DNA from: Branchiostoma floridae
Taxonomy: Eukaryota; Chordata; Leptocardii; Amphioxiformes; Branchiostomatidae
NCBI RefSeq assembly: GCF_000003815.2
Contig: NC_049985.1
Coordinates: forward strand, 15,034,522-15,098,521
DNA: 64,000 nt
Direction of reading: 5' to 3'
A program made the position numbers and the translations under genes. Position 1 is the stretch's first letter, and every line of letters starts with the position of its first letter. The notes below the pieces were generated by a model. It was not told where the DNA came from and made no database searches. It worked only from the letters and a program-made list of their open reading frames with translations. Shown here one piece after another: positions 6,296 through 24,500 of the stretch.

Positions 6296-6588
6296 TCACG
6301 CGGAACTTTGTTCTGTAAGGTCGTAGTTGGGATTACTGAAGGTGTTCGTTCCTTCTGGATCAGTCTTATCATCTCGAGCTAAGATGTCTTGGAATCCAAC
6401 GCTTCCAGCCACGGGACTTTCATTTTGTACGAGACCCTTCCCATCATCCACCCGTTTCCGCCAAAACAGGAAGTAGTAGGCCACGCCCAGAGCTGCCACC
6501 ACAACAACCAAGATGGTGACGACCACACCGGCTACGATTCCTCCGGTGTTGCTGCCTCCTTTTTGTGGCTGTGGGCCTGTGTAGTTAG
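6296..6588 (-). CDS. Kringle gene last exon: stem, membrane helix and NPNY tail
   Basis: 293 nt with phase-1 acceptor TTTACAG and stop TGA at 6296-6298. A Gly/Gln/Asn-rich stem of about 16 residues is followed by a helix of about 26 hydrophobic residues ([20 protein letters not shown] onward), a W-R-K-R stop-transfer and an acidic cytoplasmic tail of about 50 residues ending [12 protein letters not shown]. NPxY motifs bind PTB-domain and clathrin adaptors in LDL-receptor-type proteins, so endocytosis or signalling through such adaptors is inferred. Confidence 0.9.
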
Positions 6589-9500
6589 CTGTAAATACAA
6601 TTAGAATATGTAAGTTTAGTAAGCCGCCTAGAATTCGAACCGTACAATTTGCGGGTCAAATGCGAAAATAGAATATCTAAGATGAATAGTCAGTCAGATC
6701 CTTTTCTTGGCAAGCTCATTTCTTTCTTGCACAGAGACTTTTTTCCACCGACAGGAGTTCTTTACAATTCCTCATAATGTTTTTACAATATTTAATAGTT
6801 AAGGGTAACTCACCACAATTCGGTACCACACAGAATTCAATCCTGGCCAGCGGGTCGACAGTATAACACCACGGCTTGACGTCATTATTTGGGTTCCTGT
6901 ATCATGAGCACAAAATAATAATTGAATCATGGAAACTAACCTGTGTTGGTGATAATCGTAATACTATGATAAACCTTCTTCCAACACAAATGTATACACG
7001 GATCAAATGTTCAACGACCACTATCGCCTTCTTCAGGATCGATACTGATGACCGATCACATCAGAACGTAAACTTGCGAGAGTTTCAGGTACGTGATCTT
7101 ATCAGCACGTGATCTTGCAGCAATTGGTCAAAAGTGTCAGGAAGTTTATAACGCCCACCGTCTCTGTCTAAAGATGGCTGGAGTGCCCTGATGTATACGG
7201 CCTCCCTTATACCACTTTCAAAGTAGTCCTGTTCCGTATCCAGTATCATGATTTTGTCTAGTGAAAGTAAAAATAAGTTAGAGTCATTTATAGTTCTTTT
7301 TATAGTGAGAATATTTCTACTTCCCGCCAAACCCCATCCCGTACCTGCAGTAGTTGTCCTGCAGCCCTGCCTGAGGGAAGGTGTCGGCTGTGGTGCTGAG
7401 GTGCTGGTGCGGGGTTTGGGAGTCCCAGCGCTGACACGCACGTCCTGACGACGTCACGTTCACTTTACCTCTATAGGATACTCCCCTGTCGTTATAGCAC
7501 TCACCAGGGACTGGAACAACAATATATTGTGATGATAGTATATTTGTTTGTGCTCACACAGTATGATTGTCAACTTATATAAGCTGGACAAGCGTACTTA
7601 GCAAAGACTGTATGTGTAGCATTGAGTCGTACATGTCATGTTCTATTTAGAAAAGTCCATTCCACATTGAACACTATACGGAGCAACATCATATATGCAT
7701 ATCTAAAATGTTTTAAGTACTAGATAAAAAAAATGACTACCCACAGCAGCCCGGGATGTCGCAGACCTGCCACCTGATGTTGGGATCTGTTGTGTAGCAC
7801 CAAGGACGGTCCCACCCGTCTGGGTTCCGGCAGTAGTTCTCATTCAACTCCGTGTTGGGGAACCTGAAAAAAGAAAAAATTAACCATTTTGGAACCAATA
7901 CTATAGTAAGCTGGTATTACTCAACTGCATACAGAAAAGGCACGGTGTTCTTTCAATCCAGAATAAACTTCAATGCAAGAATAAAGAACAAACTGCAGCT
8001 GTTGAAGCGAAGTTTACCTAGAAAGCATGTCGTGGTAATATCTGGTCAACTGTTGATAGCATACAGAAATGGGTAGGAATTTCTTTCAATTCAGAATAGG
8101 CTTCAATGCAACAGTAAAGAGCTTTGCCAAACTGCGGCTATTGAAGCGTAGTTTACCTAGCAGGGATGTCGTGCTGATGAGGTGTCTGACTGTCCCACCG
8201 CTGACACGGGATGCCGTCTTTGCTTACCGACACCTCGCCTCGATATGTGGCTCCGTCTCCAAAATAACAGTTCTCAGGAAATACTGTAACGCATCGGAGG
8301 TGTAAAATAGTTTAAGTTCTATCATCATGATTATAAGACTAAGATGACTCAAAGGTGAAAAAAGGCTGTATGTACACAGCTGAACGAATAAATAAATATA
8401 AATATTACACAGATGCTCACCTTTATATTTGTGTGAAGGTGGCGGAGCTGTACCTAGTGAGGGGGAAACAAACGAGAATATTTCTTAACGAGGTAATGTG
8501 CAACTATAGATATTTTCTTTAAGTTGGAACCGACTTAGTTATTGATTTGAGCAGCATACTCAACAAAAATGTTGTTCATTGAAAGGGGCAAAAGATTCTT
8601 AAAGCTAGGAAATTGCTACTATAGTATATATTTCGAACTATAACCTGTATATGATAGATTGATAATTATTGTAATATGAATTCCGGAATATTTTAAGGTC
8701 GACGTCCCTTACCATCGCAGTTACTGATGACACACGCCTCCCATCTGACGTACGGGTCCTGGGTATAGCACCAAGGTTCCGCCTCCCCGTCAGGGTTCCT
8801 ACAGAAGTTCTCGTCCAGCCCGGCTGACGGGTAGGTTGTCGGGGTCCGTGTGTGAGGGTGAGGCGTCTGACTGTCCCAGCGCTGACAGGCCCGGCCAGAG
8901 GACGTGATGTTAACCGTGCCACGGTACGATGTACCGTCACCATTGTAACAGTCGTTGACTACATCATTTGAAAAAAAAAATCACAACAGATTTTCAGTTA
9001 TGCAAATCCAAGGATGTGTAACCGTAAAGCATATTTGTCAAATGTAGGATCAATTGGAGTCAACTGTAGTTGCTTTGCCGTGATACAAATTTTTGACATC
9101 GTCTTGTCAGTTTACTGATTGTAATAGGATTAAGTTGCTAGAGGTAGAAAAAGAGGAGTTTTTTTTATCTTACTAAATTTTTTTACTCACAACATTGCGG
9201 CACAGTACAGTACTGCCACCTAACGTTAGTGTCGGTTGTGTAGCACCACGGCATGGGTTCTCCATCCGGGTTCCTGCAGTAGTTCCCGTCCAATCCGGCG
9301 TCAGGATGCCTGACGGTCTGGTCGTGAGGGTGGGGAGTCTGACTGTCCCACCGCTGGCAGGTCAGACCGGCGCTTGTGATACTGACGATACCCCGGTAGG
9401 TGGCGCCGTCACCGAAGTAGCAGTGTTTGGGGTAAACTGGTAATGGGAAATCATTAGGTCAGGAGAAGTATAAGCATGAATCCAATCCGAGTTTTCTAAC

Positions 9501-21500: not shown

Positions 21501-24500
21501 CCAAACACCCTGGCGTTACACCTCACGACCCCATAATTGTAAATTGAATATGAAATGCTATTACATCGTGTTGATTTCTGTATCGATTTCGTAATGGTTA
21601 AGAGAGCCGAAGTTTATGACGGAGTTCTGAAGCACATATTCAGCACCAAGGACAGAGACGGGTGTAGAAAATGCAGAGTAAAATGGTAAGGCGGTGAAGA
21701 TAATAGGAATTGATAATCATCAAGCATTTGTTAACTGGAGGTACAACTTTATATGATAACTACATGCATCTCTTTTGCTAATTAGTGTATAATCGATGAT
21801 ATTAAAGACTTACTGTTTTTTTTATTTTATGGATATGCATCAACCTCGGTGTACATAAACCCGCAGTTGTTAAAATTGGATTGTCGAAGCTTCTATATGA
21901 TTCGATATTTCGAGTTTGCAATACGGATACTCACAGAAATATGCGTCCGGTGGGGCGGTCGGAGCTTGGGTCGGTCCGGATTCTACAGCAGAAGAAACAC
22001 ATTGTAAGTGAAGCCATCAACACATGCGCAATTACGTTTGATGTATATGTGATGGATTTGCTAAAAAGTGCGTTATATGACCTTTCCTCACAGCTCTAAA
22101 GTGTAAAGCTACGAGTTGTTGACCTTTTTCCGCTAAAATTTGGAACTGCGGTTTTCAGTGCCACCTTCCACCGCATCTAAAAACAGGGTATTTAGGTATG
22201 TTAAATCAACTGACACTAGTTTTAAATTGCAGAGTTTTCAAATATCAAAATCAAATATCAAAAAGTAGCTTGAAACTACCGTTCGTCGACATTTTGATAT
22301 TCATAAATGTCCTGATTTCAAATACAACGGATATAGGTTACCCCGCAGATAAAGGTGAACTAACGTTACCACGTAAGCATCGTTCTGATCTCATCCATCT
22401 CTTCAAATGTAGACAGGGAGATGAATACATTGAATTTCATAGTAGTAGCGTATGAGCTGATAGACTCACCACAAACAGGCAGACCGCAGTACTCCCATCT
22501 CTGTCCAGGGTCCATAGTGTAGCACCATGGCTGCCCTTCCCCATCCGGGTTCCTACAGTAGTCGTTCTGCAGGCCGGCGTCAGGCTTGCTGGCGGGCGTG
22601 TTGCCGTGTGGGTGGGGCGCCTGACTGTCCCAGCGCTGACACCTCCGACCGGAAGCCGTCACCATTGCATTGCCGCGGTAGTCCTGTCCGTTTCCGGTGT
22701 AGCAGTTATCTTGGCCATCTAGTAGAGAAACAAGATGTCGAAATATACATCAATGTCAAGCACTCGATACAATTACGTTTTGGGAGTAAAAAAATATTAC
22801 AAGCACGGGAAATTTACTAAAATTACTAAAATATTACTAACTGGAACACTCTTCTCTGGAGTACAGTATGGCTTTAAGTGCAAAATGCTTATGTCATGCA
22901 ACAACAACAACAACAGTACAAAACATGCAAATTTTATCATATTTAGTGCAATGTTGTATGTATCAAAAAGTCAGATGCACACAATCTTTCCCTTGTGCCC
23001 TCCAGATTTTACCGATCTGAAGGGGTCGACCTAGGTGCCGTCTTCGTTTCAAATCATTCACCTGGTATGTTGATATGTTTAGTGTACATATCAATAAGGA
23101 TGATGCCAACCTCTTATTACGTATTTCTAGTCTTTCTCTATTTCTATAGTCAGCATATAACCATATCATGCTACTCACAACAGGACGGAATGCTGCAGTA
23201 CTGCCAGCGGACGCCAGGGTCCGTGGTGTAGCACCAGGTCCTAGGTTCTCCATCCGGGTTCCGACAGTAGTTCCCCTCAAGACCAGCGTTGGGATAATTC
23301 GTGGAGTTGCGGCTGTGCTCGTGAGGGGTTTGGCTGTCCCATGCTTGGCAGGTCAAACCGGGCTCTGTGGTGCTCTGTGTTCCCCTATATGACTCTCCAC
23401 TTCCATACACGCACGCTGTCGGATACACTGTAAGATAATACGGTCTTGTAATTGATTTAAAAAAAAAAACTGTTAGTGTTTGCATTGATAAATGTTATGA
23501 AAATACACATTTACGTGCCTCACAAACACATAACTGTATTCTGTGCTACAAATTTTATGCAAACTTAATAGATATATGATACAATTCAGTATTTGATTCA
23601 TAAAGACCCCCAGTAGTTTACCTACCGGAAAATGCTCTTAACCCCATCAAACTCGATTCACACATAAACATTAAATACGTCACTACAGGGCCCAATGACA
23701 AGATTTAAGACTAACCGGAAAGTAATAGAAAAATATATCGTTGTTTTGTAGCCTTCGAAACGGTAAAGCTTTTTCGCGGGTGTTAACATAATGCGGACTG
23801 TTCACATGATCGTCGCTTCATAGAAATACTTGAAAAGGATATCGAAACAAACATAGACAATATTGAAAATTTCAGTATTGCATTGTAAAGCATTTTTAAT
23901 TTCACAGAATAGATATAGAATAGATACCGTTTCTCTATTCCTCGAATCTTATATAGAGTATATCATGATAAATGGGCTACATTGGCTACATGATCGTCGT
24001 TTCATAGAAATACTTTAAAAGAAAAAAAACACAGATATAGATATTGAATATTTCAGTTTTGAATTTTAAAGCATTTCTTATTTCAAAGAACACAAAGAAT
24101 AAATACCCTTTCTCTATTCCTTGAATCTTATATAATAGAATATATCATAAATACACAGGCTGCATTGGCTACATGATCGTCGTTTCATAGAAAACCACAA
24201 ATTAAAAGAATATAAGATTAAAAGAATATTTCAGTCTAGCATTGCACAGCATGTTTTTATTTCACAGCACACAGAGAATAGATACCTTTTCTCTATTCTA
24301 TGAATCTTTGATAGAGTATATCATGCATACCAGTTGGGAGAGGAGCCATACCCTATCCATGATATATCGGCTGCCGGAAAGTTTATTACTTTGCCAATAC
24401 CGGTGTAATTGGTTTGGCCCTTGGCTATGAACGATTGATCTGTCTTTGCCGCATCATTGTCTGGAGCTTCCCGGTAATCTCACATTCTTGTTACGCACCA

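Follow-up and report, generated by a model that had tools for sequence, protein, structure and literature searches.

A predicted sixteen-kringle membrane protein gene built from four-kringle cassettes in Branchiostoma floridae, and its inverted paralog

Plasminogen and apo(a) are secreted, and plasminogen-type kringle arrays end in a protease or protease-like domain. ROR receptors have a single kringle beside their kinase, frizzled, and Ig domains, and the members of the LDL-receptor family are built from LDLa repeats and YWTD propellers. Apo(a) is reported to end in a protease-like domain and the first exon of its KIV-2 to be 160 bp long (PMC4378929), Kremen to contain kringle, WSC, and CUB domains (PMC3927612), and the FxNPxY motif in LDL receptor tails to be recognised by the PTB adaptors Dab2, ARH, and Numb (PMC3848845). 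Repeats that grow by units of several domains are known as well, the unit being seven domains in nebulin, four in FN3, and five in cadherin (PMC1553488, a paper in which the word kringle does not occur). Here, we describe a predicted gene with sixteen kringles in a window of 64,000 nucleotides (C7:15034522-15098521) of the 513-Mb Branchiostoma floridae genome, which is also the genome covered by all genome-wide searches below. Block duplication is already known for other repeats; new are the architecture, the alternation of lysine-site residues, and the differing head domains of the gene and its paralog. A 16-kringle membrane receptor was not described in any title or abstract opening among the matches listed, which do not cover most subscription papers.

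The gene lies on the minus strand, where 35 exons from 30107 to 6296 were placed by splice signals: two signal exons, 25 exons for the 16 kringles (K1 to K16), seven linkers (L1 to L7), and one exon for the transmembrane helix and tail. GT-AG borders were found at 34/34 introns, the phases agree throughout, and the exons form one frame with its sole stop at the end. The predicted product of 1,579 residues, 46 of which are X from an assembly gap (12908-13042) covering the N-terminal part of K11, consists of a signal-peptide-like start, 16 kringles, a membrane helix, and a short tail. The gene would thus encode a type I membrane protein, its start presumably acting as a signal peptide and its exons presumably being joined in a single transcript.

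An earlier, sequence-only reading of this DNA had proposed four kringle types arranged four times as a, b, linker, c, d, linker. This order holds through three cassettes; in the fourth, the membrane exon follows d in place of a linker. The same reading had told the types apart by intron position and by the last loop of d, and here it agrees with what we found: type b is intronless in 4/4 and type a in 3/4 (K5a is the only split a, with its intron at the c position), type c is split before P-x-x-x-L in 4/4, type d is split within N-Y-C-R in 4/4, and R-V/I-E-Y/F-C is present in all four d kringles. As also proposed, the modules are symmetric, since all kringles begin and end in phase 1, their internal introns being in phase 2. 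Linkers after b contain three or four prolines (4/4), and linkers after d none or one (3/3). The predicted ending in a membrane helix rather than a protease stands too: the stop lies in the membrane exon, which encodes the helix, a WRKR stop-transfer, and a 51-residue tail ending with FSNPNY.

Pfam was used to scan two pieces of the spliced protein, K9, K10, L5, and the first half of K11 being left out. The Kringle family (PF00051), whose cut-off is 34.3 bits, scored 739.1 and 512.2 bits in the two pieces, with 8 and 6 stretches, and K9 and K10 exceeded the same cut-off in the genome kringle search. No other family reached its curated cut-off in the scanned pieces; thus neither the kinase, frizzled, and Ig domains of ROR, nor the WSC and CUB domains of Kremen, nor the trypsin-like domain of the plasminogen/apo(a) family were found there, and no protease family, LDLa, or YWTD domain was listed. 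Like ROR1/2 and Kremen, the protein would cross the membrane once and carry kringles on its outer side, but it has sixteen of them and Kringle is its only family above cut-off in these pieces. With LDL-receptor-type receptors it shares a modular ectodomain and an FxNPxY motif in a short tail. Among single-kringle PDB chains, a type d kringle was best matched by plasminogen kringle 4 and apo(a), and the first exons of K4 and K12 are 160 bp long like that of KIV-2 (those of K8 and K16 are 163 and 166 bp). Unlike in plasminogen and apo(a), a membrane helix follows the kringles, and where the variable repeat of apo(a) is a single kringle, the repeat here is a four-kringle block.

As a minor observation on splicing, the ends of the first exons of K4 and K15 are duplicated, together with their splice donors, just downstream in the intron (19936-20075 and 7927-8173; a 50-bp unit; 78% over 115 bp), and the copies are possible decoy donor sites.

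Probable block duplication and later history of the cassettes

Similarity between kringles was plotted against their distance in the array, as has been done for domain repeats (PMC1553488), with percent identity replacing the alignment score. Mean identity was 53.0% between neighbours, 58.8% at distance 2, 67.6% at distance 4, 63.7% at distance 8, and 60.7% at distance 12, and random orders of the same 16 kringles averaged 57.6% (20,000 shuffles). The observed value was reached by none of the shuffles at distance 4, by 57 at distance 8, by 4,304 at distance 2, and by 3,060 at distance 12. The array has a period of four: similarity peaks at a distance greater than one, as in block-duplicated repeats, namely at distance 4.

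The cassettes contain nested dyads. In the 16-kringle tree the deepest split separates {a,c} from {b,d} (support 99/96), type d forms a clade (87/89), and the type labels require three changes, which is the minimum (shuffled mean 9.5, with 0/200 as low). In a tree of dyads, ab and cd separate at 95/97. When a/c and b/d were swapped within cassettes, the given labelling had the best within-type identity, and the 4/256 labellings as high are the same labelling renamed. The two splits, {a,c} from {b,d} and ab from cd, support a history in which a two-kringle A-B unit would have been doubled, with divergence, to a-b-linker-c-d, and this block would then have been copied in tandem to four; the order in which the cassettes were born is resolved by neither the kringle nor the dyad tree. 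Duplication of a whole multi-exon cassette, as previously suggested, is backed by the period-four identity, the kringle and dyad trees, the alternation of linkers, and the common intron positions. Several domains were likewise copied together in nebulin, FN3, and cadherin repeats (PMC1553488), but here the unit is nested (two within four) and functional residues follow it. The gene would thus illustrate clearly how a repeat can grow by nested blocks (2 -> 4 -> 16 kringles).

Matching introns of different cassettes gave no match at E up to 1e-4, and the block copies therefore look old. Later changes are superimposed. Between the b exons of cassettes 2-4, uninterrupted identity extends over 62, 65, and 75 bp; elsewhere in the gene, the longest such tract was 24 bp among intronless a exons, 21 bp between K2 and the other b exons, 38 bp among the first exons of d, and 17 bp among the second exons of c, in a comparison of same-type pairs that left out c first exons, d second exons, and both halves of K5. 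Synonymous divergence (dS) was saturated in 6/6 c-type pairs and ranged from 0.65 to 0.96 in six a and b pairs of cassettes 2-4. This suggests gene conversion among the b exons as the simplest reading, and because the low a/b dS occurs together with the b-exon tracts, the possibility that the a/b pairs of cassettes 2-4 are younger blocks was set aside.

A number of observations count against so orderly a history. The sequence-only reading had expected the types to cluster across cassettes, and a tree in which they fail to do so was not obtained, but only d is well supported: the c clade reaches just 43/0, and a and b are neither clades nor, taken singly, one-change groups. In a 51-row tree that also includes the paralog described below, groups a and b need two changes and c three, with K02b and K11c outside their type groups; this tree has few columns for its rows, unsettled bootstrap values, and a long branch for HGF kringle 4, and its kringles from other loci were chosen by hand (22 of 38 matches at hand-picked loci, near-copies and partials being dropped). 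Nor is the history after the block copies clean, given the conversion-like tracts of the b exons and the c-like intron of K5a. All this, together with the fact that the deepest and best supported split is a two-kringle one, would also fit duplications of single kringles or of pairs, the four types being by-products of conversion or convergence. We consider such a course improbable, since identity peaks at distance 4 and not 2 (67.6 vs 58.8%), the ab and cd dyads separate, and a period of four is also seen in the intron positions and in the kinds of linker, a pattern that conversion of kringle exons would not impose on linker exons.

The inverted paralog and other kringle loci

A genome search with the last exon found the gene itself and one strong relative at C7:14966705 (+) with an E value of 7.7e-23, followed by four others with E of 0.0136 or above. 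The relative belongs to a paralog at C7:14961445-14966980 (+), inverted and about 74 kb away, which has the order C-type lectin, EGF-like, L6-like linker, a, b, T-rich linker, c, d, helix. Its C-type lectin domain was recognised from two joined exons (E 1.2e-16) and its EGF-like domain as Pfam FXa_inhibition (E 5.1e-10). Only the second half of its c kringle was seen, the exon for the first half presumably lying in an assembly gap. Gene and paralog thus share the series linker, a, b, linker, c, d, helix, and the paralog differs by its single cassette, its lectin and EGF-like front, and a tail, reading FVNPVR, without tyrosine. As an assembly gap follows close behind this tail, a further exon is possible.

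Each paralog kringle pairs with its cassette-4 counterpart in the 51-row tree (97/85, 100/93, 100/98, and 100/99), and the c-d stretches are 79.7% identical over 768 bp, intron included. The cassettes would therefore have diverged before the gene was copied, and the pairing with cassette 4 also rules out that the paralog is the ancestral single cassette. An uncollapsed allele was ruled out as well, as the paralog is inverted, lies ~74 kb off, has other front domains, and its last exon is 71% identical over 72 residues. An overlooked lectin/EGF head in the window was also rejected: the second lectin exon and the EGF exon of the paralog were unmatched there at E up to 1, and its first lectin exon at E up to 1e-6. 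Either an ancestor with a lectin-EGF head and several cassettes may have undergone losses on both sides, or the 3' end alone may have been copied beside a lectin-EGF head.

Among 528 kringle candidates in the genome, at least 150 are scored matches. Clustering of the 150 (<=8 kb, one strand) gave 107 groups, of which this gene is the largest with seven and the next two have four each; these counts comprise mainly single-exon kringles and are lower bounds. A mosaic gene at C6:3562.8-3568.7 kb (+) carries three successive kringles, one of them a/c-like and two b/d-like, and since both kinds occur there, the A-B pair is probably older than the present gene. This locus, whose exons were joined by position only, differs in having TSP1 before and a C-type lectin after the kringles. 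Of 51 matches to the first lectin exon of the paralog, 13 have a member of the 150 kringles no more than 10 kb away, where random placement would give 0.22 (the paralog is itself among the 51, and matches close to each other are not independent), which indicates that lectin and kringle exons often occur together. A kringle-only receptor seems to be at the unusual end of this range. Lancelets are reported to have high rates of domain shuffling (PMC4284660), and gene-prediction error has been put forward as a counter-view (PMC4967905). The present pair bears on this dispute, as cassettes 1-3 on the one hand and the lectin-EGF head on the other can be read on one chromosome. Separately, very similar four-kringle runs with the same order were observed at C6:23.98 Mb and C4:1.28 Mb, perhaps due to a recent duplication.

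Lysine-site residues and possible function

Six lysine-site residues, D55, D57, W62, F/Y64, R71, and W/Y72 (kringle numbering), were assessed by alignment to human plasminogen kringle 4. The set is complete in 7/8 a/b kringles, the exception being K5a with Y for Arg71, and in 0/8 c/d kringles. The acid at position 57 is missing from all four c kringles (P, A, H, and W; K3 also lacks Arg71), and Trp72 from all four d kringles (V, V, V, and I; K16 also lacks Asp55). The paralog shows the same division, its a and b kringles being complete and its c and d kringles not. By the same rule, plasminogen kringles 1, 2, and 4 are complete and 3 and 5 are not, and none of the four HGF kringles is complete. 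Of the patterns that bear on function, the strongest is that the a/b residues were kept while c and d each diverged in their own way.

With moderate confidence, we predict that this type I protein, grown by nested block copying, is a multivalent lysine-binding uptake receptor. The ectodomain would act as a multivalent comb with about eight lysine-binding kringles, in which a/b pairs hold exposed lysines of ligands and c/d pairs serve as spacers or bind other partners, and the FSNPNY tail would deliver bound ligand to clathrin-coated pits via PTB-domain adaptors, as in the LDL receptor. A more specific version, which we put forward only tentatively, is that binding pairs alternate with pairs altered in two ways (c by loss or shift of the acid at position 57, d by loss of Trp72), that a binding and a spacer pair were copied together so that valency was tuned by the number of cassettes, and that the same cassette, bounded by phase-1 linkers, was used once behind a lectin-EGF head in the paralog. 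If so, domain swapping by whole cassettes would be visible here in the DNA of a lancelet, and the 16-kringle gene and its 4-kringle paralog would form a natural valency pair.

Several points speak against binding and uptake by the array. As the cassettes are copies, eight against eight kringles are not 16 independent observations. Ten of the 22 other kringles of the genome are also lysine-site complete, so it is the alternation and not completeness alone that is special. In three of the four c kringles (K7, K11, and K15) the residue directly after position 57 is acidic (DSAE, DQHD, and DGWD), and their anionic centre may therefore be shifted rather than lost. The rule moreover misses plasminogen kringle 5, which we take to be a weak lysine binder, so an incomplete set need not mean the absence of binding. 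For Factor XII, pairs of Trp and Asp are described as able to bind an internal lysine in the absence of the basic residues that terminal lysines require (PMC12216678). The paralog tail lacks the NPxY tyrosine, and uptake would thus not be a property shared by the family. Two membrane exons on C12 (C12:19552940 and C12:19595824; E 0.0136 and 0.5 to the last exon) have NPVY tails, and no kringles were found within these 3-kb loci. Instead of taking up ligands, the protein might be a co-receptor in adhesion or signalling, in the manner of Kremen or ROR with their kringle, with the array as a rigid spacer bearing one or few specific sites. Vertebrate kringle membrane proteins are such receptors, FxNPxY-type motifs can bind signalling PTB proteins too, and the ROR1/2 kringles are among the PDB matches. 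We nevertheless find this unlikely, as no kinase, frizzled, WSC, or CUB domain reached its cut-off in the scanned pieces and complete lysine sites are repeatedly kept in the a/b kringles of each cassette, which argues for the use of many sites.

The gene model itself must also be weighed. It is predicted from DNA, its single transcript is presumed, K11 is partly unsequenced, and the two signal exons, set apart by introns of 2.3 and 4.3 kb, are assigned only by frame. The model could therefore merge two or more genes, with the membrane end belonging only to the last cassette or cassettes; the paralog shows that cassette 4 and the helix can stand behind other domains, and the gene models of lancelets have been described as prone to error (PMC4967905). 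This is very improbable considering that no in-frame stop occurs, phases agree across 35 exons, the last exon matches the window once in the genome search, and the second lectin exon and the EGF exon of the paralog find no counterpart in the window at E up to 1. A pseudogene or non-functional array is harder still to credit. The assembly gap in K11 leaves some room for it, but 34 exon joins contain no internal stop and the ratio of nonsynonymous to synonymous substitution rates (dN/dS) against the paralog, computed for three kringles, is 0.26 (a), 0.23 (b), and 0.09 (d).

Feature coordinates and neighbouring sequences

Table 1. Exons and modules of the predicted kringle gene, as positions in the window (P, prolines)
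Feature	Positions	Strand	Basis and remarks
Exon 1, ATG and first half of signal-peptide-like sequence (MAPTTSFLATVGLMA)	30062..30107	-	GT donor, phase 1; assigned by frame only
Exon 2, remainder of signal-peptide-like sequence	27709..27756	-	AG/GT, phase 1-1
K1, type a, cassette 1, intronless	23179..23427	-	Splice/frame; PF00051 (genome search and Pfam scan)
K2, type b, cassette 1, intronless	22470..22718	-	Splice/frame; PF00051 (genome search and Pfam scan)
L1 (4 P)	21935..21982	-	Splice/frame
K3, type c, cassette 1, exons 21072-20946 and 20622-20498	20498..21072	-	Splice/frame; Pfam scan
K4, type d, cassette 1, exons 20194-20035 and 19827-19745	19745..20194	-	Splice/frame; Pfam scan
L2 (0 P)	19184..19225	-	Splice/frame
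K5, type a, cassette 2, exons 18826-18697 and 18274-18156	18156..18826	-	Splice/frame; Pfam scan
K6, type b, cassette 2, intronless	17498..17746	-	Splice/frame; PF00051 (Pfam scan)
L3 (3 P)	17272..17310	-	Splice/frame
K7, type c, cassette 2, exons 17031-16905 and 16679-16561	16561..17031	-	Splice/frame; Pfam scan
K8, type d, cassette 2, exons 16189-16027 and 15591-15509	15509..16189	-	Splice/frame; Pfam scan
L4 (1 P)	15259..15300	-	Splice/frame
K9, type a, cassette 3, intronless	14516..14761	-	Splice/frame; PF00051 (genome search)
K10, type b, cassette 3, intronless	13905..14150	-	Splice/frame; PF00051 (first row of genome search)
L5 (4 P)	13499..13537	-	Splice/frame
K11, type c, cassette 3, two exons; N gap 12908-13042 in first exon	12272..13052	-	Splice/frame
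K12, type d, cassette 3, exons 11052-10893 and 10339-10257	10257..11052	-	Splice/frame; Pfam scan
L6 (0 P), like linker preceding first kringle of paralog	10019..10054	-	Splice/frame; sequence search
K13, type a, cassette 4, intronless	9191..9436	-	Splice/frame; PF00051 (genome search and Pfam scan)
K14, type b, cassette 4, intronless	8713..8958	-	Splice/frame; PF00051 (genome search and Pfam scan)
L7 (3 P)	8421..8453	-	Splice/frame
K15, type c, cassette 4, exons 8283-8157 and 7863-7745	7745..8283	-	Splice/frame
K16, type d, cassette 4, exons 7510-7345 and 6896-6814	6814..7510	-	Splice/frame
Last coding exon: juxtamembrane part, transmembrane helix, WRKR, 51-residue tail with FSNPNY, stop	6296..6588	-	Splice/frame; one strong genomic relative (paralog)

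Other coding-like sequences of the window were judged by eye. Protein-kinase-like exons (DFGFATKM) followed by a 675-aa Lys/Ser-rich frame lie at 33160-37000 (-), and a second kinase-like set of frames at 45700-47030 (-). Between them, at 40998-44618 (+), a 1206-aa frame ends in about 14 copies of a 44-residue unit (a 132-bp tandem repeat, 42737-44577); it resembles a nucleotidyltransferase-like part with TPR-type repeats behind it. An exon resembling those of G-protein-coupled receptors (LVLFVLCWGPYHGYS ... NSMINTVVY) is located at 48981-49442 (-). Two minisatellites were also observed. The one at 1-3502, ~2.8 kb downstream of the kringle gene, has an 11-bp unit (AGGTATGACCA) in arrays of ~163 and ~110 copies flanking an assembly gap, and the one at 61683-63253 consists of about 30 copies of a 52-bp unit.

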